Shown here piece after piece: positions 5,899 to 25,502 of a stretch of 32,141 nucleotides of DNA. The position numbers and the translations under genes are program-made. Source of the stretch: Candidatus Eisenbacteria bacterium. Lineage in GTDB: Bacteria; Eisenbacteria; RBG-16-71-46. The first letter of the stretch is position 1. Each line of letters begins with the position of its first letter. Below the pieces are notes generated by a model. It saw only the letters and a list, made by a program, of their open reading frames with translations, was not told the origin of the DNA and made no database searches. The stretch spans positions 1 through 32,141 of the forward strand of contig JABFRW010000120.1 in the NCBI GenBank assembly GCA_013140805.1, read 5' to 3'.

Positions 5899-8132
5899 TC
5901 GCGCTCGCGCATCTGGACCGGCGACGCCAGCAGCGAGTCGATCGAGATCAGGCTGCCGTCCCTGCGCACCTGTCCGAACGTCAGCACGCCGGTCGGGCAG
6001 CTCTGCACGCACGCCGAACAGCGCACGCACTGGGGGTCCTGCATGGGCGCGCCCTGATTCGCGAAGCTCATCACGTCGATGCCCTGGTGACACACCGAAG
6101 TGCACACATTGCATGAGATGCACTTCTTCTTGTCGGCGACGATCGCGAAGCGGCTGAAGCGTGCGTAGATGTGCATGAGTGCGGCGAGCGGGCAGAAGAA
6201 CCGGCACCAGAAGCGTCCCGAGTACCAGAAGTACACGCCGTAGCCGACGACACCGGCGAGAAACACATCGACCAGCCACTTGTAGCGTTCCTTGAGCACC
6301 GGGTCGAAGACGCGATCGATCGCGTTGCCGTCGGGCAGTATCCAGCCCACGATGCGCAGCACCAGCAACGCGAGGGCGATTGCGAGGATGCCCTGACCCG
6401 CGAGGTTGAGGCGATTCCAACCCGGACCGTGCGGCATCTTGTGACGATGTGTATCACCGAGCGTTTCGGCCAGTGCGCCGCACGAACAGATCCAGCCGCA
6501 GTAGACGCCTTTGCCGAAGAAGTAGATGCCGAGCGGGATCAGCACCAGCGTCTGCAGCCCGCCGATCGCGATCCACGCCCACAGCGGTTCGTGCGTGAAG
6601 ATGTTGTAGACGTTGAGCGGCCACGCGAGGATCAGCCCGTAGGCGCGCCAGAACTCGCGACCATGACCGTAGGTGACAACCGGGAACAATGCGTCAGCGA
6701 GTGTTCGCGGCAGCCAGCCGTGGCGATCCATGAGCGGCAGGATTACTTCGGGCAGCAGGAACAGCGGAACCACTTGAACGGCGATCAGGGTGAGCGTCTG
6801 CGCCGTGATGTAGGGCGTGCGCCGCCGCTGGATGCGCTGAATGCCGAACACCGTGACGACCGTCGAGTAGGCAAGCGTGTACCAGAACGAGGGCCCCGAA
6901 GCGCTGATCGCCAGCGTACCGAGCAGGGTGCCGGGATCTGCGGCGGCGGTCGTGATCGCTCCACCGGCTCGCGCCAGCAACTCGGGAAGATTGGTGGGGA
7001 ACCAGTGGCGCTGGTACCAAAGCTCCGAGAACCATCCGCCCGACTTCCAGTTGTAGAGCCACGCGCAGAACAGCACGAACGCGCCCATCGCGGCCCAGCG
7101 CCGCGGCGTCATCTCGCCTGCGATCGGGACGCCCGATCGGCGGAAGAACTCGAGCGGCGCCGCGCGGCCGAGCATGGCGAACACCACGTGATTCGGGATC
7201 GTGGTGGACTCGCCATCGCGGTTCTTCAGTACCACCTCGTCTGCGCGCACTTCGCTCACGGTCGAGCCGAGCGCCAGTTGGAGCCGGCCTTCGCGCGCGA
7301 GTGATTCGAGACGCGCGAGGTTCTCGCGCTTGGGGCGCGCGAACGACTGCTTTCGATAGGAGAGCGTGACGCGCGCGCCGCACTCGGCCAGCGCGATCGC
7401 GCTCTCGAGCGCCGAGTCGCCGCCGCCGACCACCAGCACGTCGAGGCCGCGGTGGTCGTTCGGGTCGTGGAGCCGATGGAAGACCTTGCCGCTCGAAACC
7501 GGTGCCGACTCGAGCGGACGAAACTCGCCGCTCCGTCCGATCGCGACCAGCACGCGACGTGCGTGTACCGTTTCGCCGTCGGCCATGTGCGCGGTCATTC
7601 GGTCGCCGTCGCGGCTCACGCGCGTCACGCGGCCTGGCGTGGTGACGATTCCCAGCGCCTCGGTCTGCGAGCGCAGCTCGTCGACGAGCGCCTCCTTGAT
7701 TTTCGCGCCGACCTGCACGGCCCCTGCGGGCTGCCAGCCGTGCGGGTAGGTGAAGATCGGTTTGGCGCGCGGAAAATCGATCAGCGTCGCGAGCGGCTCG
7801 GCAGCTTCGATCACGCGATACGAGAGCCCCAGCGCCTGCGCTTCGGCCGCTGCCGCCAACCCGGAAACGCCGGCGCCGATCACCAGCAGATCGGGAACCG
7901 ACGCGTCATTCGAGCGCGCGCGCATGAGCGGGTCGTTCGCGATCGTGCGCGCCACTCGCGCTCCCGAATCGAGCGCGAACTTGAGCAGCGGCACGCCGGT
8001 GAGATCACCCGCCACGTAGAGGCCCGGCACCGCAGTCGAGCCGTCGAGCCCCACCTCGGGCAGCGGTTCGACGGTGCCGGCCGGCCACCGCAAGTGCAGC
8101 CAGCGAGCGAAGCGGCGCAAGTTCTCAGTCAT
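5895..8132 (-). CDS. Flavin reductase / 4Fe-4S polyferredoxin membrane fusion
   Basis: The start used is MTENLRRFARWLHL; an upstream in-frame start adds 28 weak residues. About residues 30-335 form a thioredoxin-reductase-like flavoprotein: FAD site VIGAGVSGLAAA (86-91 glycines) and NAD(P) site VLVVGGGDSALESA (about 232-245). The family's usual C-terminal piece, VPGLYVAGDLTG, sits at the N terminus (35-46), so the domain looks circularly permuted. Residues 350-640 hold several membrane helices with Cys motifs CGWICSCG (545-552) and CRFFCP (643-648), as in NosR/NapH/FixG-like proteins. Two 4Fe-4S sites follow: C671, C674, C677, C681 and C702, C705, C708, C712. It probably moves electrons from NAD(P)H through FAD and Fe-S clusters across or into the membrane; the acceptor is unknown. 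Confidence 0.85.
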   Translation of the reverse strand: MTENLRRFARWLHLRWPAGTVEPLPEVGLDGSTAVPGLYVAGDLTGVPLLKFALDSGARVARTIANDPLMRARSNDASVPDLLVIGAGVSGLAAAAEAQALGLSYRVIEAAEPLATLIDFPRAKPIFTYPHGWQPAGAVQVGAKIKEALVDELRSQTEALGIVTTPGRVTRVSRDGDRMTAHMADGETVHARRVLVAIGRSGEFRPLESAPVSSGKVFHRLHDPNDHRGLDVLVVGGGDSALESAIALAECGARVTLSYRKQSFARPKRENLARLESLAREGRLQLALGSTVSEVRADEVVLKNRDGESTTIPNHVVFAMLGRAAPLEFFRRSGVPIAGEMTPRRWAAMGAFVLFCAWLYNWKSGGWFSELWYQRHWFPTNLPELLARAGGAITTAAADPGTLLGTLAISASGPSFWYTLAYSTVVTVFGIQRIQRRRTPYITAQTLTLIAVQVVPLFLLPEVILPLMDRHGWLPRTLADALFPVVTYGHGREFWRAYGLILAWPLNVYNIFTHEPLWAWIAIGGLQTLVLIPLGIYFFGKGVYCGWICSCGALAETLGDTHRHKMPHGPGWNRLNLAGQGILAIALALLVLRIVGWILPDGNAIDRVFDPVLKERYKWLVDVFLAGVVGYGVYFWYSGRFWCRFFCPLAALMHIYARFSRFAIVADKKKCISCNVCTSVCHQGIDVMSFANQGAPMQDPQCVRCSACVQSCPTGVLTFGQVRRDGSLISIDSLLASPVQMRERD

Positions 8133-8315
8133 GCGTGGCACTGTCGCATCGGCTCTCAGCGATGACAATGCGCTCGCGAGCGGGCGAGCCGCGCACACCG
8201 ATCGGCTTTGCGACATGACGACGAGCGGCTACAGTGGCGATGCGGTGACCCGCGACATTCAGCGTGCGGCGCGCCGCCGGCCTCGCCACGCACCAGCCCT
8301 CCGGCACAGGAGCCC

Positions 8316-8681
8316 ATGCTGAGCTACGACTGGAGACATCCCGAACGAGTGGTTCCCTGGAAGCCGCGGCATCGCTTCCGGGTGACCGAGGCGGGCCGCT
8401 CGGCGTTCGATGACTATTCTCGTGTCTTGAAGCTGGCACAGGATGCCTCGAATCCTCGTGAAGCGCTCGACGGCGCAAAGACCGCGTGGGCCGAACCGTT
8501 CAAGCTGCGGACCTCGGACGGCATCGTGCTCGAGGATCTGGTCTCGGGGCGAACCTGCCTCGCCGACATCGCGGAGACCCTCGCGGCGTGTGATCTCACG
8601 CTGCGAGAGGCGCGCGGTGCGATCGACCGGCTGCTGGCGGCCTCGCTCATCGAGAGCGTGGATCCGCTCCCCGGAAGCTAA
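8316..8681 (+). CDS. Small winged-helix-like (PqqD-like) protein, 121 aa
   Basis: The ATG at 8316 is preceded by AGGAG at good distance; the frame upstream of it overlaps the divergent promoter region and is ignored. The protein starts MLSYDWRHPERVVPWKPRHR. Its C-terminal half, including VLEDLVSGRTCLADIAETLA and then AIDRLLAASLIES, has the pattern of a short winged helix or PqqD-like fold: a start strand, a helix with a Gly-Arg turn, a helix, then a helix leading to a 'L-x-x-x-L-I-E' turn. No catalytic residues are visible. It might be a DNA-binding or peptide-binding adaptor. It is divergent from the polyferredoxin gene and lies just upstream of the broken YHS-like gene on the same strand. 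Confidence 0.6.
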   Translation: MLSYDWRHPERVVPWKPRHRFRVTEAGRSAFDDYSRVLKLAQDASNPREALDGAKTAWAEPFKLRTSDGIVLEDLVSGRTCLADIAETLAACDLTLREARGAIDRLLAASLIESVDPLPGS

Positions 8682-8759
8682 CGAGCCGGCTGGCAGGTTG
8701 TGACCGGCGCCCCGGAACGCTTCCAACCGCTCGAGCGGCTCGTGCGTCTACTGGGAACC

Positions 8760-9272
8760 ATGGTCTCGCGCTGGTGGGTTCCTCTGCTCCTCACACTCGT
8801 CGGGCTGGCCGCCATCGGCGCCGGCCCCGCCGACGAGTTGGGCGCGCGACTCTCCGCGCCGTCGACGCTCGACGCCCTTGCCGGTCAGCCCTCGAACCGC
8901 TTCACTTGAGAACCGATTCCGGTCCCGTTGGGACCGATCGTCGACGCCGACTGGGCGCTCTATCATCTGAGCCGGGTGTTGTGGGACCCGATCGATCCGA
9001 GACGTCTGGGTTCGCTGGAGGACTCGTTGCAGTATCGCGTGAACGGCGAGGTCTATCGGTTCGCGAGTGCCGCGACGCTACGGCGCTTCATGCGCACGCC
9101 CGAGCTGTGGGCCGGTGTGGTGAGGGACCCCATCACCACGCGCCGATTCGTGCCGTCGAGTCGATCGCCCGCCGCTTACTGGTTCGGTGGTCCGTACTTC
9201 TTCGAGAGCGAGTCCACCAAGGCCGAGTTTCTCACTGATCCGGTGCGCTATCAGATCATCCGGCGCATGTAG
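8760..9272 (+). pseudogene. Membrane-anchored YHS-like protein split by in-frame TGA
   Basis: Two open segments lie in one frame, separated only by a TGA at 8907-8909. The first (MVSRWWVPLLLTLVGLAAIG) is an N-terminal membrane helix or signal anchor. The second, after EPIPVPLGP, reads as a small YHS-like domain: YRVNGEVYRFASAATLRRFM, then a segment ending PAAYWFGGPYFFESESTKAE and FLTDPVRYQIIRRM. The join would give one plausible anchored protein of about 170 residues. The simplest explanations are a TGG-to-TGA nonsense mutation or an assembly error, since protein-like sequence continues directly after the TGA. Independent translation of the second half from the TTG at 8928 is possible but has no clear ribosome-binding site. 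An earlier in-frame GTG at 8700 is an alternative start. Confidence 0.55.
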
Positions 9273-10593
9273 CCTGCGCGCGCTCCTTGCGCTGACGCTC
9301 GCCTTCCTCGGCGCCGCGCCTTCGGTCGCCGCGGGCGTGAGTGCTCGCGAGCGCGCGATCGCAGCGCGCGTCGACGCCTCGGTGCCCGCCGGCCTCACGC
9401 TGCTCGAACGCACCGTGAACATGAACAGCGGAACGCTCAATCCAGACGGGGTTCGAAGCGTGGGACGCGCATTCACGCCCGCTTTCGAAGCGCTCGGCTT
9501 TCGGATCCGCTGGATCGACGGCGCGGCATGGGGACGCGCCGGGCATCTGGTCGCCACACGCGTCGGGCGCGCGGGTGGCGCGAACGCGAAACGACTGCAC
9601 GTGCTGTTGATCGGACATCTCGACACCGTGTTCGAGCGCGACAGCCCATTCCAACGTTTCGAGCGCCTCACCGATTCGACGGCGAGCGGCCCCGGCGCAA
9701 TCGACATGAAGGGCGGGATCGTCGTGATGTGGCTCGCGCTTCAGGCGCTCGAGGCCGCAGGCGAGCTCGAGCGACTCGACTGCACCGTGTTCCTGTGCGG
9801 CGACGAGGAACGCTCCGGTGAACCGCTGGCACTCGCGCGCCGCGACCTGATCGCGGCGGCCGATGCGGCCGATGTCGCGCTCGGCTTCGAGGACGGCGCC
9901 GGCGATCCGCGTACCGCGGTGGTGTCGCGACGCAGCTCGGGCGGGTGGGTGCTGCGAACCACCGGCAAGCCCTACCACTCGTCGCAGATCTTTCGCGCCG
10001 ATGTCGGCTACGGCTCGATCTTCGAAGCCGCGCGCATTCTGAATGCGTGGCGGGACTCGCTCGCCGGTGAGGCGCTGCTCACCTTCAACCCGGGGGTGGT
10101 GCTCGGCGGTACGCGTGCCCACTACGACGAGGCCGCGGGCGGCGGCGGCGCGTTCGGCAAGACCAACGTGGTGGCCGAGAGTACGGTGGTGGCCGGCGAC
10201 CTGCGAGCGCTGTCACTCGAACAGCGCGAAGCGGCGCGCGCCGCCATGCGGCGCGTCGCTGCGCGCAATCTGCCGCATGCCTCGGCAACACTCGAGTTCG
10301 AGGACGGCTATCCGCCGCTGGCGCCGAGCGAAGGCAATCGCAGATTGCTGGCGATGTACGACCAGGCGAGTCGCGACCTGGGCCACGGTCCCGTTGCCGC
10401 GGTGGATCCCGCGCGCGCCGGGGCTGCCGACATCTCGTTCTGCGAGGGTCGCGTGGAGATGGCGCTCGACGGCATCGGTCTGATGGGTGACGGCGGGCAC
10501 ACGGTCGGCGAGGTCGCGGATCTGCGCACGCTGGGCTCGCAGGCACGGCGCGTGGCGGTGCTGCTTTCGCGCCTCGGACGCGGAGCGAAGTAG
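9187..10593 (+). CDS. Exported M20-family metallopeptidase
   Basis: Only a GTG at 9187 is available as a standard start, which makes the gene overlap the preceding frame by 86 bases; the true start may be a rarer codon nearer 9270, directly before the hydrophobic signal LRALLALTLAFLGAAPSVAA. The mature enzyme has the M20 zinc-peptidase landmarks: GHLDT (His144, Asp146), AIDMKGG (Asp173, bridging), GDEERSGE (Glu207 catalytic base, Glu208 ligand) and GHTVGEVADL near the end (His438). The lid domain holds KPYHSSQ, the usual dimer-domain histidine. The best-known relatives are glutamate carboxypeptidase (CPG2-like) and other exopeptidases. The enzyme should act in the periplasm on a small peptide or acylated amino acid; the substrate is not deducible. 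Confidence 0.88.
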   Translation: MVRTSSRASPPRPSFSLIRCAIRSSGACSLRALLALTLAFLGAAPSVAAGVSARERAIAARVDASVPAGLTLLERTVNMNSGTLNPDGVRSVGRAFTPAFEALGFRIRWIDGAAWGRAGHLVATRVGRAGGANAKRLHVLLIGHLDTVFERDSPFQRFERLTDSTASGPGAIDMKGGIVVMWLALQALEAAGELERLDCTVFLCGDEERSGEPLALARRDLIAAADAADVALGFEDGAGDPRTAVVSRRSSGGWVLRTTGKPYHSSQIFRADVGYGSIFEAARILNAWRDSLAGEALLTFNPGVVLGGTRAHYDEAAGGGGAFGKTNVVAESTVVAGDLRALSLEQREAARAAMRRVAARNLPHASATLEFEDGYPPLAPSEGNRRLLAMYDQASRDLGHGPVAAVDPARAGAADISFCEGRVEMALDGIGLMGDGGHTVGEVADLRTLGSQARRVAVLLSRLGRGAK

Positions 10594-10669
10594 TCCTACG
10601 AGCTCGGGTTCTGCACGATCGAATCGCGAGACTCCCGATCTGCAAGCCGGGGTGCCAAATCCCCCAGCT

Positions 10670-10684
10670 TCGATCCGGGATCGA
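10670..10684. repeat. 15-bp perfect palindrome before the protease gene
   Basis: TCGATCC and GGATCGA face each other around one central G in the 255-base gap between the M20 peptidase and the HtrA-like protease. It could be an operator, but GATC-rich palindromes also arise by chance in GC-rich DNA. I see nothing else of note in this gap. Confidence 0.3.
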
Positions 10685-10848
10685 TCTCGCTGAACGGCAT
10701 GCGATTGGCGCATTGGTGCCGCAGCCGACGCCGCTGGAACGCCGCTTGCGCTCAGGCGGCACGCTTCGCCGCGATTCGTGGCGAACGAAGTGAACGTCCG
10801 AGCCGACGGCGGCGGACGCAGACCCAGCCGAACGGAGGGCAGTCGCAC

Positions 10849-12189
10849 ATGTCGAGAGGATCGAACTGGCAGACGCGAATTCTGGTCCTGGTGGCAGGCC
10901 TCACGGCGCTGAGCATCGGCGCGCCCGAAGCCGCACCGCGAATCGGAGGCACGGATGCCCAGGCTCAATCGGTCTTCAGAGACGCGCGCGGCTACACGGT
11001 TCGAATCCGGACGCGGATCGAGGCCCCGTTCGGGGCGGACAAGCTGGGCTCGTTCTTCGGGGCCGGATTCCTGGTGGATGCGGAGCGGCGGTGGCTTCTG
11101 ACCAACGCTCACGTCGTCGGAGAGTCTCCCTCGGAAGTCGAGGTCGCCTTCGCGGATGGCGAATTCCAGCCCGCGAAGAAGATCTATGTGGATTCGTTCA
11201 CCGATGTGGCGGTGCTCCAGGTCGAGCACATTCCGACTGGACGCCGGCCCGCGATCCTGGAGACCCGCGACGAGGTCGCGGTCGGTGAGACGGTCGGCGC
11301 CTTCGGCCATCCGCTCGGCATGCACTTCACCGGCACGCGCGGCATCGTCTCGAACGTCACGGATCAGGCCGGACCCGACCTGCTCCAGATCGACGCGACC
11401 GTCGACCATGGCAACTCCGGGGGGCCGGTGATCTCGCTGCGAAGTGGTCGCGTCATCGGGATCGCGACGGCCGGATTCGATACCGACAAGTCCGATCGTA
11501 TGAACTTCGCGACTCCGCTGAAGGACGTCCTTCGAATCATCAAGCTCTTGAAGGCCGGGGAGTCCCCGGTCCCGACATTGTTCGAATTCACCCTGCTACG
11601 GAATGATCAGGGCAGCCACACGATGGAAGTCGGGGCGACCTCAGATCCGGTGCGCTGGCCGCTGCAGTCGGGAGATCGTATCGAGTCAGTCGAAGGGGTC
11701 GGCGAGGTTCAGACCTACTCGAAACTGGTCACGGCGCTTCGAGGTTGCCGCGGATCTGCGCGCCTCTCGGTGCTGCGCAATGGCAAGTCGATCGCGCTTC
11801 AGATCGCGCCGGCCATGGCGGAACCCGTGCTGGAGCGTCGGGGCCTCGGCATGGATGGCGCACTCATCAGTTCGTTCCTGTGGGACGACGGAGCGGTATT
11901 CGTGGAACGGCAGCCGTTGAGGGTGGAGTTCGTGATGCCGGGTTCCGCCGCCGAGGCTCAGGGACTCAGCCCTGGAGATCGCATCGAGAGCATCGACGGC
12001 GTTGGCTACGCGAGTCTCGAGGCGCTGCGGTCGGCGCTGCATGCGCGCCCCGAGGGGAAGGTCGCGCGCATCGTCCTGCGTCGTTGGAGCCCCAGCGACA
12101 ACCGAATCTTCGACTTCCACGTCCGAGAACTTCCGATGGAAGAGATCGTCGAGGTGGGGCCGCAGGCGGAGGAGGTGGCCGCGCGGTAG
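10849..12189 (+). CDS. HtrA-like S1C serine protease with PDZ domains
   Basis: The ATG at 10849 follows GGAGG at about ten bases, and it is followed by a signal peptide (cleavage likely after APEAA near residue 29); the open frame upstream is noncoding. The trypsin-like domain carries the full triad: His88 in TNAHVV, Asp119 in SFTDVAVLQV and Ser190 in DHGNSGGPVIS. Two PDZ-like parts follow, one around residues 240-322 (LQSGDRIESVEGVGEVQTY) and a clearer one at about 362-420 (PGSAAEAQGLSPGDRIESI). Length (446 aa) and order match periplasmic DegP/DegQ-type proteases, which degrade or refold damaged envelope proteins and bind C-terminal peptides by PDZ. The first PDZ is unusual and may be degenerate. 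Confidence 0.9.
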   Translation: MSRGSNWQTRILVLVAGLTALSIGAPEAAPRIGGTDAQAQSVFRDARGYTVRIRTRIEAPFGADKLGSFFGAGFLVDAERRWLLTNAHVVGESPSEVEVAFADGEFQPAKKIYVDSFTDVAVLQVEHIPTGRRPAILETRDEVAVGETVGAFGHPLGMHFTGTRGIVSNVTDQAGPDLLQIDATVDHGNSGGPVISLRSGRVIGIATAGFDTDKSDRMNFATPLKDVLRIIKLLKAGESPVPTLFEFTLLRNDQGSHTMEVGATSDPVRWPLQSGDRIESVEGVGEVQTYSKLVTALRGCRGSARLSVLRNGKSIALQIAPAMAEPVLERRGLGMDGALISSFLWDDGAVFVERQPLRVEFVMPGSAAEAQGLSPGDRIESIDGVGYASLEALRSALHARPEGKVARIVLRRWSPSDNRIFDFHVRELPMEEIVEVGPQAEEVAAR

Positions 12190-12267
12190 CCGTACTCCCA
12201 GTCGCGCCGCGGTACTCGAAATCTGCGGCCGACGACTGACCCGCACTGCCGGAGACAATTTCCAAAG

Positions 12268-12471
12268 GTGCCCGCGTGCTCGACTCCGTCGATCGTCACT
12301 CTTCAAGCCGCTCGCAAGCTCGACATCCGGGTGAGTCGCGTCCTGACCGACAACGGCTTCGGCTACATCGGCCGGTGCTTCGCGCACGCGAGCGCGCTGC
12401 TGCGGATCGCTCAAAAACACACTCGCCTCTACCGCCCACGGACCAACGGACAGGCGGCCTCCCGACTTTGA
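12268..12471 (+). pseudogene. IS481-type transposase remnant (DDE core fragment)
   Basis: The frame reads RVLTDNGFGYIGRCFAHA, then about 20 residues on YRPRTNGQAASRL before a stop. This matches the second half of the integrase core of IS481/IS3-type transposases: the D in LTDNG is the second catalytic Asp, and P-x-T-N-G-x-A-E is the segment carrying the catalytic Glu, here degraded (AAS in place of AER). Neither the N-terminal HTH nor the first Asp region is present, and no terminal inverted repeats are visible. It is a decayed insertion sequence remnant between the protease and the DUF1428 gene. Confidence 0.75.
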
Positions 12472-12646
12472 CGCTCTTCGCACGCGGCCGCTATCCTCGC
12501 CGCTTGCCTCTCGTGCAGCTGGAAGATTCACGCCCGCAGTGCCGCCGTAGAAGCGTGAACTGCCGCGTCGGACGCGTGCCCGTGGGCCCGGCCGCCTGGT
12601 CACCACGCTGAAGCCGCAACCTTCCCACCCCTCGAGGAGGTCCGTC

Positions 12647-13039
12647 ATGCCCCGTTACGTCGATGGATTCGTGATCCCGATCCCGAAGAGCAAGCTCGCC
12701 ACCTATCGCAAGATGGCGAAGTGGGGCGCGAAGACCTGGATGAAGCACGGCGCGCTCGAATACTTCGAATGCGTCGGTGACGACCTGAAGACGCCGTTCG
12801 GCCTGCCCTTCCCCAAGCTCGCGAAGACCAAGCCCGGCGAGACCGTCGTGTTCTCGTGGATCGTCTACAAGTCGAAGGCGCATCGCGACCAGGTCAACAA
12901 GAAGGTCATGACCGAACCGGGCATGATGGACATGGCCAAGTCCATGCCGTTCGACGTGAAGCGCATGTCGATGGGCGGCTTCGAAGTGTTCGTCGAGGCG
13001 GCGGCCGGGAAGCGAAAGACGGCGAAGAAGGCCCGCTAG
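12647..13039 (+). CDS. DUF1428 protein (YbaA-like), 130 aa
   Basis: The ATG at 12647 has GAGGAGG shortly upstream. The sequence fits the DUF1428 family throughout: MPRYVDGFVIPIPKSKLATY at the start, HGALEYFECVGDDL in the first half, then a long stretch with KPGETVVFSWIVYKSKAHRD and the last part around MPFDVKRMSMGGFEVFVE. The family has a dimeric alpha/beta-barrel (ferredoxin-like) fold related to antibiotic-monooxygenase-like proteins; its biochemical role is not established. The C terminus ends in a Lys/Arg/Ala tail (AGKRKTAKKAR) not normally part of the domain. It is soluble and appears to be transcribed alone. The 298 bases that follow contain nothing I can support. Confidence 0.88.
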   Translation: MPRYVDGFVIPIPKSKLATYRKMAKWGAKTWMKHGALEYFECVGDDLKTPFGLPFPKLAKTKPGETVVFSWIVYKSKAHRDQVNKKVMTEPGMMDMAKSMPFDVKRMSMGGFEVFVEAAAGKRKTAKKAR

Positions 13040-13337
13040 GTGTGGAGTCTCACCTGGTTGTTCCCGTCGCTCAGTCGACAGCCCGGGCGAGGCGGGGCGT
13101 CGGTCCCGACCGAGGGGATGAGGACGATTCTCCGCTGGAACTCGACGCTCGCGTGCAGGTAGGCTCGGCCGCGCGCGAATGCGAGTGCTTATTGCTTGTC
13201 CCGGCCCTCGTCGCGTTGCAGATGGTCGAATCTCACCGACGTTGCGAGGCGTTCGAACTTCGCGTTCGATCGGCACCGGCGGACTCCTGCCGAGCGCGTC
13301 CCCTCGAGGCGTTGACTCCCCCAACGGAGGTGACAGC

Positions 13338-14059
13338 ATGCACGCCCGCTCGCTCGCACTCTCGATGATCCTCTGCCTTGGTCCAGCAGCACCAAGTCGG
13401 GCACCTCATTCGTGGCAGGGGGCCTGACCCCCGGCTCGGCGCCGGTTGAAATTCCGGTGCTGCTCCAGGGACCGTGCGCGTACTCCTGCGGTCCCGGCTC
13501 TCCGGGCGACGGCCGCATCGACTACGACACCGACTCGGAAGCCGGGCCGTTCACCATGAGCCTGCCCGCGATGACGTTGGTCTCGTCGACGCCGATCGAT
13601 GTCGAGGTGAACGGCGTGCTGACCGCGTTCGACGTCATCGTCACGCTCAGCGGGCCGGCTCCCGAGGCGGACGATCCGATCACGGGCCTGCTCACGTTGC
13701 CTCCGGCGACGTCCCTTTCGCTCGGGGCGACCGCTCCGGTGGCGAGCAGCACGCTGGACCTTCACGCCACGACGACGTACGTGAACGCCCTCACCGGCGA
13801 ACCGACCGGCACTGTGATCGAAGAGGACTTTCACCTGAGCCTCTTCACGTTCACCCCGGACGCCCTTCCTGTCACGCGGCTGGTCGACGGCACCGCGGAG
13901 GGGAGCATCGTGCTCGGTCTCGGCGATTCGTCCCCCGTCGTGTTCGGCTACGCGAGTGCGGACGGCGACCTGGTGCTGAACCTGGCGAGCCTGTACGACT
14001 CCGGCCCGGTACCGGTGCAGGCCACGACGTGGGGCGCGCTCAAGGCACTCTATCGATAG
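13338..14059 (+). pseudogene. Exported beta-rich protein with frameshifted signal peptide
   Basis: A GGAGG seven bases before the ATG at 13338 opens a clear signal peptide (MHARSLALSMILCLG), but that frame ends at 13427. The mature protein is in another frame from about 13382 onward (a GTG at 13412 is the first start there) to the TAG at 14059. Its sequence is Thr/Ser/Val/Gly rich with alternating hydrophobics, includes GPCAYSCGPGSPGDGRIDYD and ends VQATTWGALKALYR. It looks like a small beta-sandwich protein of the extracellular matrix or surface. A single indel around 13370-13410 would rejoin the parts, so it is either a recent pseudogene or an assembly error. I do not recognise a named family. 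Confidence 0.55.
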
Positions 14060-14158
14060 TGGAGGAGCTCGTCGTCGACGGCGAATGTGCGTCAGCGTCC
14101 ACGTCAAGGCGACAGTTGGAAACTGGACTCACCCGGCGGCGCAAGTCGTTCGAGGAGT

Positions 14159-14215
14159 TGGTGCCGGAGGGGGGGGTCGAACCCCCACTCGGTTGCCCGA
14201 ACGGGATTTTGAGTC
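14159..14215 (-). tRNA. tRNA-Leu(CAA), 3' fragment only
   Basis: Read on the minus strand, the block has an anticodon loop CTCAAAA (anticodon CAA, Leu), a long variable arm with stem TTCGG/CCGAG as expected of a type II leucine tRNA, a T arm with five G-C pairs around TTCGACC, the 3' acceptor strand CTCCGGC, discriminator A and an encoded CCA. The D arm and 5' acceptor strand are missing: pairing in the anticodon stem stops after three base pairs and the flanking sequence is unrelated. It therefore cannot yield a tRNA. This is the usual remnant left when an element integrates in a tRNA gene, the intact copy being expected at the other end of the element. Confidence 0.85.
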
Positions 14216-14340
14216 CAAGAAGCTGAGAAAGTAGTGATGTGACGACCATCACGTACCTGCGTCAATCGCGGTGATTGCAGTCGATTGAAGCGAGTTGCCG
14301 GAGAGGCTCAGCGCGTGTATGTGCGCAAGTAGCGCGGTAG

Positions 14341-14362
14341 TTCCCGCCCAGTTCCCGCCCAG
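14341..14362. repeat. 11-bp tandem duplication
   Basis: TTCCCGCCCAG occurs twice in immediate succession, preceded by G and followed by TT. It is short and could be slippage; it lies in the degraded region next to the tRNA scar. Confidence 0.7.
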
Positions 14363-14372
14363 TTGAGCGGCC

Positions 14373-14419
14373 TCGGGGAATTCTCCCCGGGGTCGACTTG
14401 TTCTCGGTCCGACTAGCGA
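14373..14419. repeat. Diverged repeat of the segment near 17.24-17.29 kb
   Basis: Aligning by eye, about three quarters of roughly 45 bases match the stretch near 17240-17285, including an uninterrupted CTTGTTCTCG and blocks TCTCCCCG and TCCG. The minus-strand reading frame is also kept (SLVGPRTSRPRGE here, SLVAGSRTRRSRGE there), which favours a duplicated gene piece over chance. Confidence 0.4.
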
Positions 14420-14595
14420 GATTCCGGCGTGGCGCAACTAACGTGCGAGGGACTGCGTCTCGAGGTGCACCAGTTGCGTCTCTGCGCTCCAGACCCTCGA
14501 TTCCAGCCTCGCGGGGGCTCTCCCCTTCGTACCGCGACGCATGGAAGCGGCCGAGCCTGCAATCACAGCAAAAAAGATGGTCTCGGCGGAGACCA

Positions 14596-14982
14596 TCATT
14601 TGACTGCTTGAGTGCTCGGAACATAGGCAAGCACTTGATCGCTGGATTCAGCGAACGCGAGGCATCGATGCGGGTCGTCTCGGTCGCGGAATTCTTGAAC
14701 ATCCGCGAGGCCGCCCTCGTTTCGTGCGGACAGACGAAGGGCGTTGTAGCAGGAGAGGACTACTTCGACATCAAACTCGTTCGCGGCATCCTGGCTGAGG
14801 ACTAGTCGCTTATTGAACATCCCGCGCGACTGGTCCTGACCGATGGATCGGTCCCGTTCCAAGCGCACTAGGGGGAGGTTGCCGTCAGCGTCCTCCTGCG
14901 CGATGCGCTTCATAGCCTCCGGGCGCGCAGCGTCGAGGGCGCGGCGGATGATGCGACGAATCTCGTATTGCGGTGAGCGCAT
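14596..14982 (-). CDS. Hypothetical protein, 128 aa
   Basis: The ATG at 14982 has a clear GGAGG six to seven bases upstream, better than most genes here. The protein starts MRSPQYEIRRIIRRALDAAR; the N-terminal third is basic and helical and could bind nucleic acid, while the rest is mixed and has no signal or membrane segment. I recognise no family. A competing plus-strand frame (14668-14805, 45 codons) also has a GAGG before its ATG, so the C-terminal part of this gene is less certain than its start. A strong hairpin with T-rich flanks sits in its leader and could act as an attenuator. The gene is the first candidate right of the tRNA scar. Confidence 0.5.
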   Translation of the reverse strand: MRSPQYEIRRIIRRALDAARPEAMKRIAQEDADGNLPLVRLERDRSIGQDQSRGMFNKRLVLSQDAANEFDVEVVLSCYNALRLSARNEGGLADVQEFRDRDDPHRCLAFAESSDQVLAYVPSTQAVK

Positions 14983-15004
14983 TGTCTGCCTCCAGAAAAA
15001 CGGA

Positions 15005-15046
15005 AAGGCCCCCTCGGCCGTTATCGGCGACAAGGGAGCCTTTTTT
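15005..15046 (+). terminator. Hairpin with six-T tail
   Basis: AAGGCCCCCT (15005-15014) pairs with AGGGAGCCTT (15033-15042) with one mismatch, and the plus strand continues into a run of six T. This is a good intrinsic terminator for plus-strand transcripts, though no clear gene ends just before it. On the minus strand the same hairpin is followed by TTTCCGTTTTT and lies in the leader of the 128-residue gene, so attenuation of that gene is another possibility. Confidence 0.55.
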
Positions 15047-15192
15047 GAGGAGCTTAAAGGTGCGGATCGCTAACTACGGTCTACCTCGCGCGCGTCGGCC
15101 CGTCAACCCCCCTCGGGGTTCTAGTCACTCGCACGCGACTCCATGGTGACGGGACAGTCGAAACACGCACCTCCTGAACTTGGAGACCCACC

Positions 15193-15366
15193 ATGCAGAA
15201 CGAATCGCTGGACTTCCACATCGTCGGGGCGATCATCTTCACGCTCCTCGCGCACCTGCATTCAACGTCTCACACGAAGGATCAGAGGTTTGTTCGGTGG
15301 GTGGCGCTCTGCAGTGTCTGCGGCGTGGCGCTGCTGCTCACGCTGAGGCACGTTGGGGCGATCTAG
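15193..15366 (+). CDS. Small membrane protein, 57 aa
   Basis: A short gene with GGAG before its ATG and an intrinsic terminator directly after its stop. It reads MQNESLDFHIVGAIIFTLLA at the start and, after a polar His/Lys/Arg loop, a second hydrophobic stretch (RWVALCSVCGVALLLTLRHV). The result is a likely two-helix hairpin in the inner membrane with a short basic loop of about 15 residues. I recognise no family. Such two-helix miniproteins occur as membrane-complex subunits, type I toxins or phage holins, but nothing here selects between these. The tidy gene-plus-terminator arrangement supports it being real and expressed on its own. Confidence 0.6.
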   Translation: MQNESLDFHIVGAIIFTLLAHLHSTSHTKDQRFVRWVALCSVCGVALLLTLRHVGAI

Positions 15367-15370
15367 GTCG

Positions 15371-15391
15371 GCCAGGCGATCGCCTGGCTTT
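15371..15391 (+). terminator. Intrinsic terminator after the small membrane gene
   Basis: GCCAGGCGATCGCCTGGC (15371-15388) is a perfect 18-bp palindrome that folds into a seven-pair stem with a GATC loop, followed by TTTC. It begins four bases after the TAG of the 57-residue gene. Confidence 0.65.
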
Positions 15392-15520
15392 CGAGCAATG
15401 AGTGCGAGTGTGGCCTCGCGCCACGCCGGCAGTCTCGCCGGCTCCGATTCCTTCCGGAGGCGCGCTGCTCCGCTCTTCCGTGTACTGCTTCGGCGCCGCG
15501 GCCGATACGGGCCTCGTGGC

Positions 15521-16171
15521 TCAGGCGGAGAGGGTCAGGCGGGCGAGTTCGACGCGGAGATTCTTCTTCGCCCTCACATGCCTCTGGACGACCGTGTTGG
15601 GTAGGGCTCTCAGCTCAGCCGCGATCTGCTTGAGTTCGATGCCGTCGAAATTGTGACGCATGAAAACGTATCGCTCGACCTCGGAGAGCTCATTCAGGGC
15701 TGTCGCTAGTTTGACCTCCCAGGGGTCGGCCGCCGGCCGCGCGCATTTCTCGCCCGCAAGACCGTCTTCCGCCTCCGCCGCGCCCTCGTCAGCCGCTCGC
15801 TGCTCGAAGTACTCGCCGGGAACCAGCTCGAGGAGGTCCAGGTCGCGGGCAGCGCGCCGCACGCGATCCATTACGCGGCGAAAGATCATCCGAGACAAGA
15901 ATCCCACGATGGTGGTGTTGATTTCCGGCGCCTTGAGCCACAGCTCAAAGAGAACGGCCTCGGCAATCTCCGCAGGATCCAGCGCGTGACGGATCGACTG
16001 TTTGTTGACCACCCTCATCGTGCGGTGGAGAACGAACATGTTCACGCTCGTGTTGTCGGTGATTGATGACCGCAGAAAGCGGACGAAGTCGGTGTCGCAG
16101 CGGGATCGGCGCCACTCCCGATAGGCGCTGAGGGCGACTTGCCCCGCTGGCTGACTTGCGGCCAATGTCAT
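15521..16171 (-). CDS. RNA polymerase sigma-70-family (ECF-like) sigma factor
   Basis: The start MTLAASQPAGQVAL (16171) has GGAG about nine bases upstream; the frame continues upstream without a better start. The N-terminal half resembles sigma region 2: FVLHRTMRVVNKQSIRHALD, a short acidic segment, then FLSRMIFRRVMDRVRRAARD, which carries the Arg/Val pattern of region 2.4. A variable acidic linker follows (about 130-160). The C-terminal part, LNELSEVERYVFMRHNFDG followed by IELKQIAAELRALPNTVVQR, is a clear region 4 helix-turn-helix for -35 binding. Length (216 aa) suits group 4 factors. No anti-sigma gene is evident. It is divergent from a small exported-protein gene with 242 bases between starts, which could be its target promoter. 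Confidence 0.8.
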   Translation of the reverse strand: MTLAASQPAGQVALSAYREWRRSRCDTDFVRFLRSSITDNTSVNMFVLHRTMRVVNKQSIRHALDPAEIAEAVLFELWLKAPEINTTIVGFLSRMIFRRVMDRVRRAARDLDLLELVPGEYFEQRAADEGAAEAEDGLAGEKCARPAADPWEVKLATALNELSEVERYVFMRHNFDGIELKQIAAELRALPNTVVQRHVRAKKNLRVELARLTLSA

Positions 16172-16413
16172 CTGCCGATCTCCCGGGTGCTGCTGCGCTT
16201 TGATGTATGTCCGGGTTCGTGACTTCACCTCATAGTCGCACCGACATGACACGCCCGTGACGGCCACCTTTGTAAATCTTGCGTCCGCCACTGAGCATCA
16301 TGCTAGGTCCCATCATCCGTCGCTGTCACCTGGCTGCGACTCGTGGACAGAAGCGAGAGGCAGAGTGGCTCTCGTGATCAACGCGGTTCAACCACCCAGC
16401 CAGGAGAATCATC

Positions 16414-16761
16414 ATGTCGCGCATCTCTGTCGCTCGTTTCGTCGTCTTGTTCTTCGTGTTCGGCGTGGGCGTGGTCGTTGGCTCATTCGCCGCGGATCGC
16501 TTCGACTTCCACGTGTTCCAGGGCTCCGACAACAAGGGCTTCTCTGCCGTGGTCGAGCCGAGCGAGCAGGGCGCTGTGGCATCGGTGGTCGTGTCCCCGG
16601 TCGCGCAGGTGGTGCGGGTCGCGCGCCGCGTGGATGCGGTGGTCCGCGCGACAGTTGCCCTTCGCGTGCACTCGTCGGCCTCCGTGGTTCGCGTTACGGC
16701 ACCCGTGATCGGTCGCGCGGCCGTGGCGTTGACCCGGGTGGTTCACGCCGTAGTCGTGTGA
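16414..16761 (+). CDS. Small exported or membrane-anchored protein, 115 aa
   Basis: The ATG follows CAGGAGAATCATC, a strong ribosome-binding site. The first 27 residues (MSRISVARFVVLFFVFGVG, then VVVGSFAADRF) form a signal peptide or an N-terminal anchor. The remainder is unusual: long runs of Val, Ala and Arg with few other residues (for example VVVSPVAQVVRVARRVDAVV), giving amphipathic strands or helices with arginine on one face. This suggests a membrane-interacting protein. The family is unknown. Its position opposite a sigma-factor gene suggests control by that factor, but I see no clear -35/-10 pair. Codon use is GC-rich and typical of the backbone rather than of the later island. Confidence 0.65.
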   Translation: MSRISVARFVVLFFVFGVGVVVGSFAADRFDFHVFQGSDNKGFSAVVEPSEQGAVASVVVSPVAQVVRVARRVDAVVRATVALRVHSSASVVRVTAPVIGRAAVALTRVVHAVVV

Positions 16762-16774
16762 TAGCGTCCATCGA

Positions 16775-17068
16775 ATGTCGCCAGGGAGAAACGACAATGA
16801 CCAAGAACAAGCGTCCGACGAGGGCCCCGGTTTCTTCCTTTCCGGCCCCACGAAGCCGATAAGGCGTCGTGGGAGGAAACAAGACGGCGCGCAGCTGCCG
16901 CCGGCTTCAGGACCTGAGGCAAACTCAAAGGATGATCCGAAGCGTCGCGCTGCGATTCGACGCGAGATCAGGGAAGCGATCGCTGAGGCGCAGCCGGAAG
17001 TCGATCGACGAATCGCCAGAGCGAGGGAGCGACGCAGGAGTCGTCCCAAGCTGGAGCCGGTGACTTAG
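16775..17068 (+). CDS. Small charged hypothetical protein, 97 aa
   Basis: The protein starts MSPGRNDNDQEQASDEGPGF with an acidic head and ends in a highly basic helical tail (RRAAIRREIREAIAEAQPEV, then RRIARARERRRSRPK). No signal or membrane segment is visible. The ribosome-binding site is poor; the better one (GGGAGA) precedes an ATG at 16798 in another frame that gives only 21 residues, so either the real start is non-canonical or the upstream frame is not translated as drawn. The composition (acid head, long basic helix) would suit a nucleic-acid or partner-binding protein. It lies 13 bases after the Val/Ala/Arg-rich exported gene, probably in the same transcript, and ends 27 bases before a strong hairpin. 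Confidence 0.45.
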   Translation: MSPGRNDNDQEQASDEGPGFFLSGPTKPIRRRGRKQDGAQLPPASGPEANSKDDPKRRAAIRREIREAIAEAQPEVDRRIARARERRRSRPKLEPVT

Positions 17069-17094
17069 GCCATCGACTAGAGAGAGATTGCGAG

Positions 17095-17127
17095 GAAGCC
17101 GGTGTCGACTTACTCGACGCCGGCTTC
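17095..17127 (+). terminator. Strong 14-bp hairpin between convergent genes
   Basis: GAAGCCGGTGTCGA and TCGACGCCGGCTTC pair around the five-base loop CTTAC, with only one G-T wobble, followed by TTCATT. It probably stops transcription from both sides. The stop codon of the minus-strand gene (17110-17112) falls inside the loop. Confidence 0.6.
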
Positions 17128-17508
17128 TTCATTCCCGAGCACGGCCTGAACTCTCTGCGCACGCCGGGCCACGGAAACGCTGGCCCGGAGTTTCAGCCGC
17201 TCGGGATCGGTCGCGAACTGGAACATCAAGCACTGGACCGCGGTGATCTCTCCCCGCGACCGTCTTGTTCTCGATCCGGCTACGAGGCTGGCCGCGCAAT
17301 TTCGACTTGCCGGACACACTCGGCCATCACGAGTTTGGATCGACGCCAGTGGGGAAGTGAGGACGTGGGGCAGGGCCCTAGCGGCCACGAGAGAGAGTGC
17401 CTTGACGACCGGGTTCTCAATCAGGAGACCAGCTGCGAAGAACAACCAACCAACCACAACTAGGGCAATCGACACGAATTGCTGCCAATCACACGAGAAG
17501 TTGGCCAT
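17110..17508 (-). CDS. Small membrane-anchored hypothetical protein, 132 aa
   Basis: The start MANFSCDWQQFVSIALVVVG (17508) has AAAGG about ten bases upstream; a GTG nine bases earlier is in frame but too close to that site. One hydrophobic helix (about residues 10-30, including GWLFFAAGLLI) anchors the protein, and the rest is polar and basic with paired cysteines (VCPASRNCAAS). There is no recognisable domain. Part of its coding sequence (SLVAGSRTRRSRGE) is echoed in the degraded stretch beside the tRNA scar. The gene is convergent with the small charged gene and ends within a hairpin loop. A divergent 195-bp gap separates it from the next plus-strand operon. Confidence 0.5.
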   Translation of the reverse strand: MANFSCDWQQFVSIALVVVGWLFFAAGLLIENPVVKALSLVAARALPHVLTSPLASIQTRDGRVCPASRNCAASLVAGSRTRRSRGEITAVQCLMFQFATDPERLKLRASVSVARRAQRVQAVLGNEEAGVE

Positions 17509-17712
17509 GGAAATCACCGCCTTTCGGATGTGACCACCAGGCTTATCCCTACCCGCACTTCGTGCCCCTCGACCTCACGGTTCCCGACGCCTCGGTCATC
17601 ACGCCCGGCCGCGATCTTGCCGTATCATCGGCAATCGGGCGCACTGGGAAAAGCGGGCCTTCCTGAGCGGTGAGGAACTCGGGATTCGTGGCGAATTCGC
17701 GACGGGGGAGTA

Positions 17713-18525
17713 ATGGCTGAACTTGAACCCGAGGCACGCGATCGGATCATGGACGTCTTCATGGCCCGTTACAACGCGCTGCATGCCACCGACTACGATC
17801 GCTTTGAGGACGGACCGAAGGGCACTGACCACGACTACCTCTGTGTGAGCTCCTCGGGGAAAGCGCCTCTCAAAGTGCAGCACACTCGCGCGTGGGCGGA
17901 TCCTGAAACCGAGTGGCGGGTTCCCAAGGATGTGGAGCGCCTCATCGTCCATGCGCTCCAGCGACGGCTCGATGAACGCAAGATTTGCGACCGTCACGTC
18001 TCCATTCGAGTCGACTCCTTTCCACCCAAGCGTCGCGAAAAGCTCGCCCTCCTTGAAAAGATCTGGATGGCCGTCGAGTTCGGATTGAATCGAGATTGGT
18101 CCAACCCGTCACTTCAGCGTCTGATGCGCTACGAGCGGAACGATTGGACCCAATTCTATCAACCCATCTCGCCGTATGTCGCCGAGCTCGAAATCCTCGA
18201 GCGTGTGCCGCCGGTCCAGGCGCCAGCGCTCGTGGGGTGGTCGGCAACCGGCGAGGAGGGCGACGGCGTGCAGGACGCGGTCTTCCGGACTGTGGAGGCA
18301 CTGAAGAAGAAGGAAGAGCACTACAGAGGCACTAGCGCAGATCTTGTTCTCGTGATCGACTTCGAAGTCATGCCGTACTTTCAAGACGAACTTGAGCGGA
18401 TCCGAGCAGCGCTCGCGGCTCGATCGATTGACTTCCGCGAAGTGTGGCTCGTGAGTCAGTGGCTGCCCGTGTCAGCCGACCAAGTCTGGCCCGCGCCGAA
18501 CGTGCAGAGTGCCGACGCACCGTGA
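17713..18525 (+). CDS. Nuclease-like hypothetical protein A of a coupled pair, 270 aa
   Basis: A GGGGGAG lies before the ATG. The protein is soluble and of no family I know. Near the N terminus it has HDYLCVSSSGKAPLKVQHTR, in which Asp41, Lys54 and Gln56-His57-Thr58 recall the Asp...(E/Q)xK core of PD-(D/E)XK nucleases in a degenerate form. Toward the C terminus, LVLVIDFEVMPYF is followed by FREVWLVSQWLPVSADQVW. The next gene repeats the same order, with Asp43 and Glu56-His57-Thr58 at the same positions and FDEVYLACTMAVPI in its C-terminal part, so the two look like distant paralogs. The stop overlaps the next start (GTGA). I infer a two-subunit complex, perhaps nucleolytic; function is not shown. 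Confidence 0.7.
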   Translation: MAELEPEARDRIMDVFMARYNALHATDYDRFEDGPKGTDHDYLCVSSSGKAPLKVQHTRAWADPETEWRVPKDVERLIVHALQRRLDERKICDRHVSIRVDSFPPKRREKLALLEKIWMAVEFGLNRDWSNPSLQRLMRYERNDWTQFYQPISPYVAELEILERVPPVQAPALVGWSATGEEGDGVQDAVFRTVEALKKKEEHYRGTSADLVLVIDFEVMPYFQDELERIRAALAARSIDFREVWLVSQWLPVSADQVWPAPNVQSADAP

Positions 18526-19430
18526 GGGCGACGCATCGACGCGAGGATGTGGCGCTCTTGCAACTCTGCGCCGTCCTCTCCGAGTTTGATCACCAGCCCG
18601 TTGCCATTGTCAGCCGTCCCGATCGCGAAGGCGCGGCGGGTGGCTGTGATGCGCTCATTCAGCGTGGGCTCACGCGGGTGGCGATCGAGCACACCACCGT
18701 GCACTCCATCGGCGACCGGCCCGGCCTCCCGAAGCGATGGGAGCGGATCGCACCACACCTTCGTGCGCGCATCCAAGCCGAGCTTCCACTCGAGTGGATT
18801 CAGATCTGGCTTCCCCTCTTCGAGCTGCCGCGGTCCCGGCATTGGCAAGCCATGATCGGGCGCATCGCCGAAGCCGTGATCGCGGATGTTCCCGGGATGG
18901 CGCTCGACTCCGAACTGAAGGTTCAAGTCCCGGCACATGGATTCTACGTGCTCGTGCGCCGAGTCAAGCCTTTCACTCCGCAGGGAATCTGCACGATCTC
19001 GTGGCGCGTGCCGGGTCTTCCGTACGACTACGTCGTAAAGGACATGCGTCGCGCGATTGCCGACAAGCGACAGGTGCTGGAGGCGTATCGCCGAGAGGTC
19101 GAGGAGACAATTCTGCTACTTGATTCGGACGAGTGCGGTCTCCCGAGCGAGTTCATGCAGGCATTCCTGGACGCGGTCGTGGAGGAGCCGGTAGAGGCAT
19201 TCGACGAGGTCTATCTGGCTTGCACGATGGCCGTGCCCATACTTCTCTACCCCTTCAAATGGGGGGAGACGCTCATGCCCGAGCCTGAGGCGCGCCGAGG
19301 CTTTCTCGAGGCTCAAGACCGAGCAAATGCGACCCACATCGGGCGAGCACGGCGAGATTCGCGCCTATATGCGCGGCTATTGAGGTCGGCCGAGAAGAGA
19401 CGCCGCGCACAAGAGAGGCGCCCGAAGTGA
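18522..19430 (+). CDS. Nuclease-like hypothetical protein B of a coupled pair, 302 aa
   Basis: The GTG at 18522 overlaps the stop of the previous gene by four bases (GTGA); the frame is open further upstream, but that part lies inside the first gene. The N-terminal region has REGAAGGCDALIQRGLTRVA followed by IEHTTVHSIG, where Asp43 and Glu56 could be acidic residues of a nuclease-like core. The middle holds LPLFELPRSRHWQAM and a beta-rich block with GFYVLVRRVKPFTPQG. A long helical part follows (MRRAIADKRQVLEAYRREVE), then LLLDSDECG and FDEVYLACTMAVPILLYPFK, ending in a basic tail. The two-gene layout inside a probable conflict island suggests a defence-type complex; this is inference. I see no regulatory site of its own. 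Confidence 0.7.
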   Translation: MRATHRREDVALLQLCAVLSEFDHQPVAIVSRPDREGAAGGCDALIQRGLTRVAIEHTTVHSIGDRPGLPKRWERIAPHLRARIQAELPLEWIQIWLPLFELPRSRHWQAMIGRIAEAVIADVPGMALDSELKVQVPAHGFYVLVRRVKPFTPQGICTISWRVPGLPYDYVVKDMRRAIADKRQVLEAYRREVEETILLLDSDECGLPSEFMQAFLDAVVEEPVEAFDEVYLACTMAVPILLYPFKWGETLMPEPEARRGFLEAQDRANATHIGRARRDSRLYARLLRSAEKRRRAQERRPK

Positions 19431-19728
19431 GCGTAGTGTGCGTAGATCGTCGAGTCATCGGATTGTTCGGCGCCACCTCATTGTGGTCCCGTGTACCCTG
19501 TCGAGTATTGCTGGCCGAGCCTCGAGCACATCGTACGGGGCCGACGATGCTAAACGCCGCCTCATCGTGAGCGCGGGGGACCCGATCGGGGGAGCATCGC
19601 TCGGCCTCGTTCGAGCTCAATGTCGCCATACCGAGGTTGCTACGCCATTGCGAGGACGAGCTCGCTCGGGCCGAGTCAGAGTTTCACCGGATCCAGCGAT
19701 GGGCGCAGCGGGCGCCGATACGCCGGTT

Positions 19729-20682
19729 TCAATCGCCATCGCTCTGTCGATTCGGCACCGGACCCCCGACTGGATGGCCGTCGGTCCATTCCATCACCTC
19801 GCCACGAAGTACGAGTTGTGGACACTCCCGCCACGGCCCTTCGGGCAACGGATGAATCGCGTTCGGGTTGTGCAGCATCAGCGAATCATTGTCAGTGCGA
19901 TGCACGTGATCGCCGTCGGCACCGATGGATGACCGGATGTTCTCTTGGACGAAGAGAACGCCCCCCACGCGTGTGTGGCGAGGACCGTCTTCGCCGGGCC
20001 AGACCTTGAGGAATCGCCCGTTGAGGTCGAATTCGATTCGTGACGCGCGGGTCTCCCGCGAGATAAGCAACTTCTCTGCGCCGTAGAATGCCTTCACGAA
20101 AAACTGCCGAACGTGGATGCCAAGCGTCAATCGGCCGACGAGCATCACGAGGTTCCTGGTTCCCTTTCTGAGTTGTTTCGATGCATCCGCAAGGCACCGG
20201 TCGAGAATGTCCGAGTCGTCAAGTGCATGAGCGGCGCCGTCAGCAATGGCCACCCGCAGGGGCGATTTCACTTCGACTAGGATGTCACCTTCCGGCAACT
20301 TCACGAGCAGTTCGAGCTCGCTCGCCCCCTTACCTGGTGGCCGCGCAGAGACCGCAAGCCCGAGCTTCTCGCGCAGGTACCAGGCGGCCTGGCATTCGGC
20401 CATCGCAGATCGAAACTGCTCGTCATCGACGTGTGTCAGTCTTGCCGTCAGATCCCTCCCGAAGCGACCAACAAGGAGACCGCAGTCGGACGCGGCAACG
20501 AGATAGCTGGACCATGCCAATCGCTGCGCTTCAAGCCAAGGCACGTATAGCCCACGCGGTTGAGTTAGGGTGATCGCGGCGACGCGATACACCAGCGAAT
20601 CGGTCGGCGGCGCAGCCCTAAGTCGAGCCAGCACCTGCTCAGTAAATAGCGTTCGCAGCACCTCAACGGAAGGATCATTCAT
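19729..20682 (-). CDS. Putative ExK (PD-(D/E)XK-like) nuclease-domain protein, 317 aa
   Basis: The protein starts MNDPSVEVLRTLFTEQVLAR. A central region fits a restriction-nuclease-type core: a helix with Glu96 (SAMAECQAAWYLREKLG), then SELELLVKLPEGDILVEVKS with Glu124, Glu137 and Lys139 in E-x-K order. This is the pattern 'helix Glu ... strand D/E ... ExK' of the PD-(D/E)XK fold, although the middle acid is Glu instead of Asp. The C terminus is soluble with a beta-rich stretch (RIEFDLNGRFLKVWP). No DNA-binding domain is obvious. It lies 70 bases after a two-helix membrane protein gene on the same strand, so the two probably form one transcript. The 298 bases to its right-hand neighbour (19431-19728) hold nothing I can support. 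Confidence 0.65.
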   Translation of the reverse strand: MNDPSVEVLRTLFTEQVLARLRAAPPTDSLVYRVAAITLTQPRGLYVPWLEAQRLAWSSYLVAASDCGLLVGRFGRDLTARLTHVDDEQFRSAMAECQAAWYLREKLGLAVSARPPGKGASELELLVKLPEGDILVEVKSPLRVAIADGAAHALDDSDILDRCLADASKQLRKGTRNLVMLVGRLTLGIHVRQFFVKAFYGAEKLLISRETRASRIEFDLNGRFLKVWPGEDGPRHTRVGGVLFVQENIRSSIGADGDHVHRTDNDSLMLHNPNAIHPLPEGPWRECPQLVLRGEVMEWTDGHPVGGPVPNRQSDGD

Positions 20683-20752
20683 GAGCGGGTCCAGTCAGAC
20701 GGTCCGGACGCGTTCTGGTGCACATTACCCATCTCCAACAAGGAGGTTCAGG

Positions 20753-21421
20753 CTATTGCCTACGTGGCGGCGCCCACTTCTCATACCCGGCGTGACCTGG
20801 GTGCACACGGGGGAAGTCGAGTTCTTCGAAGAGTCCTGTCGCATCATCCAGCGCGGCCTTGAGGAGCGGCAGGAGCTGGGCTGCGACTTCGGAGTAGATC
20901 GGCGTTGGCGTTTCGCCTGGAGTCGGCGGAGCAAAGGTGTCAAGGGACGCGCGCCAGACTGCCATCTCGCGAAACCACAATTGCACGCGTAGCTTTTCTT
21001 CCTTGTTTTCCCAAAACACCATGCTATCTCTGTTGCGATCGTAGGAACTTCGCCCCTCATCAAGTTGCCCTAGCAGGAGTCGACTGACGAATCGCTTGGC
21101 AGTGATCGCCTCAATGACTTGCGGAAGCCATACAATCGCTGTGCCGAGCCCTTCCCAGACCGCGTCGCGAAGCACCTCCTTCGTATTCGCCCGATCGAGC
21201 TCGTGGCGACGCTCCTGCGCGCGCATGGCCGTCTCCGCCGTTTTCCTCCAGCCAACCATTGCCACCGCTCCTGCGATCAGGATCCCCACGAGCGGAACGG
21301 CGTCGCGAATGGTGAGCTCATTCCAGAACGGAGGCGTCGGTCCGAATGCCGAGTACGCGAGGATGACGGTGCCTGTAGCACCGACGGAGTAGGACAAGTA
21401 GCTGTTGAGGAGCCCAAGCAT
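20753..21421 (-). CDS. Two-helix membrane protein with cytoplasmic domain, 222 aa
   Basis: The start MLGLLNSYLSYSVGATGTVI has AGGAAAGGA at about eight bases; the longer open frame upstream is ignored. Two hydrophobic helices (about 10-30 and 43-60, the second with VGILIAGAVAMVGW) are followed by a charged helical domain. That domain includes a coiled-coil-like stretch (RAQERRHELDRANTKEVLRD) and further helices up to the end. This topology, two membrane helices then a soluble domain, is common for membrane effectors or sensors in conflict systems. No enzymatic motif is visible. It is upstream of, and probably co-transcribed with, the ExK-nuclease-like gene, and divergent from the HEPN gene with about 200 bases between starts. 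Confidence 0.6.
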   Translation of the reverse strand: MLGLLNSYLSYSVGATGTVILAYSAFGPTPPFWNELTIRDAVPLVGILIAGAVAMVGWRKTAETAMRAQERRHELDRANTKEVLRDAVWEGLGTAIVWLPQVIEAITAKRFVSRLLLGQLDEGRSSYDRNRDSMVFWENKEEKLRVQLWFREMAVWRASLDTFAPPTPGETPTPIYSEVAAQLLPLLKAALDDATGLFEELDFPRVHPGHAGYEKWAPPRRQ

Positions 21422-25494: not shown

Positions 25495-25502
25495 GACGAA
25501 AG

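Follow-up and report, generated by a model that had tools for sequence, protein, structure and literature searches.

A candidate genomic island at tRNA-Leu(CAA) and its tyrosine integrase in a Candidatus Eisenbacteria genome

The window, that is, the whole analysed stretch of 32,141 nucleotides, is the entire contig C120 of an incomplete 3.80-Mb genome in 215 contigs. It contains half of a tRNA-Leu(CAA) gene. The initial annotation interpreted this half gene as the scar of an integrated element extending to the right, with the other end outside the window. However, the only integrase-like gene in view encodes a serine recombinase, and targeting of tRNA genes by serine integrases is not known (PMC4383910). 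What truncated the tRNA gene, and which enzyme was responsible?

The truncated tRNA-Leu(CAA) occupies positions 14159-14216 on the minus strand (GGACTCAAAATCCCGTTCGGGCAACCGAGTGGGGGTTCGACCCCCCCCTCCGGCACCA, read from 14216 to 14159) and is identical to the 3' half of an intact gene on another contig of the same genome (G000:C86:18208-18294). It extends from the anticodon stem to the encoded CCA. Of the anticodon arm one half is present, followed by the long variable arm, the T arm, which is perfect, and the 3' strand of the acceptor stem with CCA; the anticodon CAA is at 14211-14209. The 3' half was described correctly at the outset, except for its boundary: identity begins at 14216, which is one base beyond the interval initially assigned, and extends 7 bases past CCA. 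The DNA on the 5' side of the fragment is unrelated to the tRNA gene, and three base pairs of the anticodon stem are still present. ARAGORN found no complete tRNA in the window and there were no Rfam matches in it, as expected given that only half of the gene is present. The fragment is real and not a chance similarity, since together with its immediate flank it matches the intact genomic copy with E = 5e-30 in a genome search. The fragment does not lie within a conserved protein-coding domain: ORF 13412-14059 ends short of it and has no Pfam domain. Another ORF, 13474-14226, overlaps the latter in a different frame and looks spurious.

The genome contains one strong second copy of the fragment, located on contig C86. 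There ARAGORN called the intact tRNA-Leu(CAA) at 18208-18294, the sole intact one with the same 3' half in the genome. The intact gene with the same 3' end that had been proposed as a check was thus found, on a different contig. The two loci share a core of 65 bp (14152-14216, minus strand), with all 65 bases identical over 14216-14152. This identity block runs from GGACTCAAAATCC to 7 bases beyond CCA; weaker similarity continues for some 18 bases further, to about 14134, yielding 95% identity over 83 bp. Outside the shared block the two loci are unrelated. Judged by sequence, the fragment and the intact copy are the expected pair of candidate att sites, and the fragment is the displaced original 3' end of the target gene, on the attR side.

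The intact tRNA is adjoined by a gene encoding a tyrosine integrase of 373 amino acids (C86:18309-19430), which starts 15 bp beyond the tRNA and converges on it. The protein matches PF00589 with E = 5e-19. No internal stop interrupts its reading frame, in whose translation the R, HxxR and Y motifs can be recognised. No relative of this integrase was found elsewhere in the genome. An integrase at the end of the element opposite to the tRNA scar is the usual arrangement. The original integrase had been supposed missing, decayed or beyond the right edge of the window; it is neither decayed nor lost, and the last possibility was the right one, as the gene sits uninterrupted at the other end of the element, on a different contig. 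This explains why no integrase other than a serine recombinase accompanies the tRNA scar in the window.

The two ends share one more sequence. In the window, an 11-bp unit, AGTTCCCGCCC (which reads AACTGGGCGGG on the opposite strand), occurs twice as a direct repeat at positions 14342-14364 (plus strand). Exactly the same 23 bp, with two direct copies of AACTGGGCGGG, are present inside the other end at C86:18352-18374, within the 3' end of the integrase gene. In the frame of the tRNA the double repeats have the same orientation at both ends. There is no third such site in the 3.8 Mb genome, even with up to two mismatches allowed, and a control pattern had no matches in the same genome-wide search. 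By analogy, these paired repeats flanking the core are probable arm-type binding sites of the integrase. The initial assignment of an integration junction is thus corroborated by three features: the intact copy with the 65-bp core, the integrase beside it, and the arm repeats common to both ends.

The fragment coincides with a compositional boundary. The GC content is 67.2% to the left of the fragment and 60.5% to the right, in agreement with the difference reported initially, and on C86 it is 67.3% in the chromosome upstream of the intact tRNA as against 62.8% to the right of it. The chromosome lies on the 3' side of the fragment and the element on its 5' side. Positions 1-14158 are the chromosomal flank downstream of the original tRNA gene; they contain ordinary cellular genes, one of which, 8928-9272, is shared with a relative (see below). 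The element occupies positions 14217-32141, so that no less than 17.9 kb of it lie in the window, and it continues past the contig end. As had been proposed, the other end lies outside the window: it is the intact tRNA with the integrase on C86. That contig contributes at least 27.8 kb, and the element comprises at least 45 kb overall.

The contig terminates (32015-32141, plus strand) in one end of a repeat that is probably an insertion sequence. The identical 127 bp also end contigs C86 (45895-46021) and C184 (19287-19413), oriented alike in all three. A search aimed at the opposite end of the repeat yielded only a diverged inverted copy of the repeat end on C184 (16186-16205). The middle of the element is not assembled, as the assembly broke on this repeat, probably an insertion sequence. 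Contigs C86 and C120 cannot be joined, since they run into the repeat in the same direction; between them there must be two or more copies of it, and possibly additional sequence. C184 might represent another part of the element.

The neighbourhood of the intact tRNA contains, in this order, genes for a CstA-like carbon-starvation protein, a redox protein, tRNA-Ala(GGC), a HerA-like ATPase and a small secreted protein, and then tRNA-Leu(CAA) itself. This upstream block is kept wholly or partly in five genomes from other genera of the family (G001, G004, G008, G016, G018), so that the intact tRNA evidently occupies its ancestral locus. Two G008 contigs, which share an overlap of exactly 141 bp, put the upstream block, the tRNA and a relative of the window gene 8928-9272 in one order and orientation. 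This arrangement is the nearest thing to an empty site, in another genus. The support that it provides is moderate: the comparison covered many genes, and downstream of the tRNA it found a single shared one, the intervening genes being different. The overlap in G008 involves the end of contig C52 and the start of C169 (L045, L046), and the contigs branch 8 bases beyond the 3' end of tRNA-Leu, as if a part of the population carried an insertion there.

Taken together, these observations make it very probable that this is an island of the integrative-element type, whose own tyrosine integrase inserted it into the single tRNA-Leu(CAA) gene. This enzyme would recombine the chromosomal attB, which begins at the anticodon loop and ends shortly beyond the 3' end of the tRNA, with the copy of that sequence carried by the circular element (attP). 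At the end now found on C86, the copy brought by the element would complete the tRNA, so that the gene would still work, with the integrase right behind it. At the window end, the original 3' half would be displaced, forming the fragment. C86 and C120 would then be the two ends of one continuous element, and this element would still be able to excise.

The arrangement closely resembles the islands described by Islander, specifically those of the anticodon-loop subsite and the 3' fragment class (PMC4383910). These have an intact tRNA and a displaced 3' fragment in the correct orientation, a tyrosine integrase directly at the intact tRNA, and a crossover at the anticodon loop. The same holds here: the genome contains the intact tRNA and a fragment of the same gene, the fragment is a terminal 3' one in the orientation of integration, and the tyrosine integrase is inside the island. 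The difference is that Islander islands are one continuous interval of 2-200 kb between the tRNA and its fragment, whereas here this interval is split over C86 and C120, both broken at the 127-bp repeat. In other respects this is a textbook tRNA-borne genomic island, a clean example of a well-known kind.

Three other explanations were considered. Half a tRNA would look the same if the 5' half of the gene had been lost by deletion or rearrangement, leaving a tRNA pseudogene and no integrated element, and C86 and C120 have no physical link. However, the break is near the anticodon loop, as in the relatives; an integrase adjoins the intact copy; the 23-bp repeats are unique to the two ends; the GC content changes stepwise at the fragment; and the ancestral locus is held by the intact copy, not by the truncated one. 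Loss of the 5' half without insertion, which the initial annotation had named as the outcome that would overturn its reading, is thus contradicted by a second att copy with an integrase and by arm repeats present only at the two ends, and we assign it a minimal probability. The same is true for integration by the serine recombinase encoded in the window at 27789-29375. Although its gene is the sole integrase-like one in the window, it is 13.6 kb away from the junction, enzymes of this type are not known to use tRNA genes (PMC4383910), and the intact tRNA is adjoined by a tyrosine integrase, as in the relatives. The initial annotation was therefore right not to hold it responsible.

A somewhat more plausible, but still unlikely, possibility is that two or more islands are arranged in tandem at the same tRNA, so that the end on C86 and the opposite end on C120 belong to different elements. 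Indeed, tRNA-Leu(CAA) is a hotspot, and some relatives, such as G018, carry several of its 3' halves. The middle of the element is unassembled, and C86 encodes a second recombinase of the XerC/integron-integrase type. On the other hand, the fragment, the intact tRNA and the integrase of the C86 family are each represented only once in the genome, and the same 23-bp arm repeats occur at both ends. The second tyrosine recombinase (214 amino acids, L036:8978-9622) matches the C-terminal part of XerC/integron-integrase models.

Single insertion by the tyrosine integrase thus being the preferred explanation, the gene content of the element may be considered. The integrase is adjoined by a gene for a Replic_Relax protein (L035:1899-2861), which matches PF13814 with E = 6e-13, above the gathering score. 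PF13814 corresponds to MOBC relaxases (PMC5357655), and the protein is thereby assigned to the MOBC type found in integrative mobilizable elements (IMEs). It is accompanied by a 515-aa ATPase, whose DUF87/HerA match is weak (4e-5, just above the cutoff) and which has no NCBIfam or PDB match. This combination is similar to streptococcal class 8 IMEs, in which a MOBC relaxase is paired with a VirD4 coupling protein (PMC5357655). However, the latter elements have serine integrases, whereas here the integrase is a tyrosine one, the phylum is different, and the ATPase is only a weak DUF87 match. The association of the integrase with a MOBC-type Replic_Relax protein and a HerA-like ATPase suggests an integrative mobilizable element, perhaps a conjugative one. 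More tentatively, it might spread by mobilization via the MOBC-like relaxase and the coupling-type ATPase. The scan of the larger proteins revealed no genes of type IV secretion or mating-pair formation, but the middle of the element is absent from the assembly. The Replic_Relax and ATPase genes were not found beside other integrases, at loci that are mostly too short.

The cargo in the window includes a UvrD-type helicase, a Schlafen/AlbA protein, a ParB-like protein, a matrixin-type protease and the serine recombinase, whereas the genes on C86 include one for a TIR protein and another for a very large RHS/YD-repeat protein. The serine recombinase (27789-29375, minus strand) is a large one with a zinc ribbon (PF00239, PF13408), weakly XisF-like, and is a passenger in the element; possibly, it marks a second, nested element. 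The region 17713-27751 contains mostly unassigned genes around the UvrD-type helicase (22639-24789) and the Schlafen/AlbA protein (26372-27040) and resembles defence or accessory cargo. PADLOC yielded generic helicase matches and weak PDC matches in the cargo, and no complete known defence system. The RHS/YD-repeat protein, in the C86 part of the element, is 2414 amino acids long (L035:10772-18016).

Truncation of tRNA-Leu(CAA) is not restricted to this genome. Three other genera have four truncated 3' halves between them (G010:C128, G014:C140, G014:C325 and G018:C31), all of which lose identity at or beside the anticodon loop. Relatives of the C86 integrase are located at tRNA-Leu(CAA) in G005, G010 and G019; in G014, a relative shares its contig with one of the truncated copies. 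The C86 integrase and these proteins, which represent five genera in all, group in one clade (SH-aLRT 97). Of 59 relatives from several phyla, 43 are encoded with their C-terminal end no more than 400 bp from a tRNA, and in 37 the two are convergent; these tRNAs are most often Leu or Ser. Related integrases from Nitrospira, Gemmatimonadota, Acidobacteria, Rokubacteria and Candidatus Eisenbacteria are mostly 39-65% identical to the C86 one over most or part of the protein and, like it, are usually convergent with a tRNA, 10-180 bp away. However, unlike it, most of them use other tRNAs (Leu-TAA, Ser-TGA, Glu, Phe, Lys and others). The integrases in plasmid records are only distant, with less than 30% identity among the matches listed. 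Six relatives (L076, L077, L080, L098, L107, L117) lie at the 5' side of a tRNA (Lys, Arg, Met or Val) in the same orientation, not convergent on the 3' end. They are perhaps a subgroup using the other half of the tRNA gene.

A broader interpretation, which in our view could fall either way, is that an integrase lineage specific for tRNA-Leu(CAA) has made this gene a recurrent hotspot across a family of Candidatus Eisenbacteria, that the wider integrase family has switched among many tRNAs across phyla, with a minority at the 5' side, and that the element in the window is a MOBC-type mobilizable one with its own coupling ATPase. At the locus itself, both ends of a mobile element are fixed and the enzyme that inserted it is named, in a poorly known uncultured lineage. 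As the insertion site in tRNA-Leu(CAA) is common to several genera, it helps to find the cargo of such elements, here a UvrD-type helicase, Schlafen/AlbA and TIR proteins.
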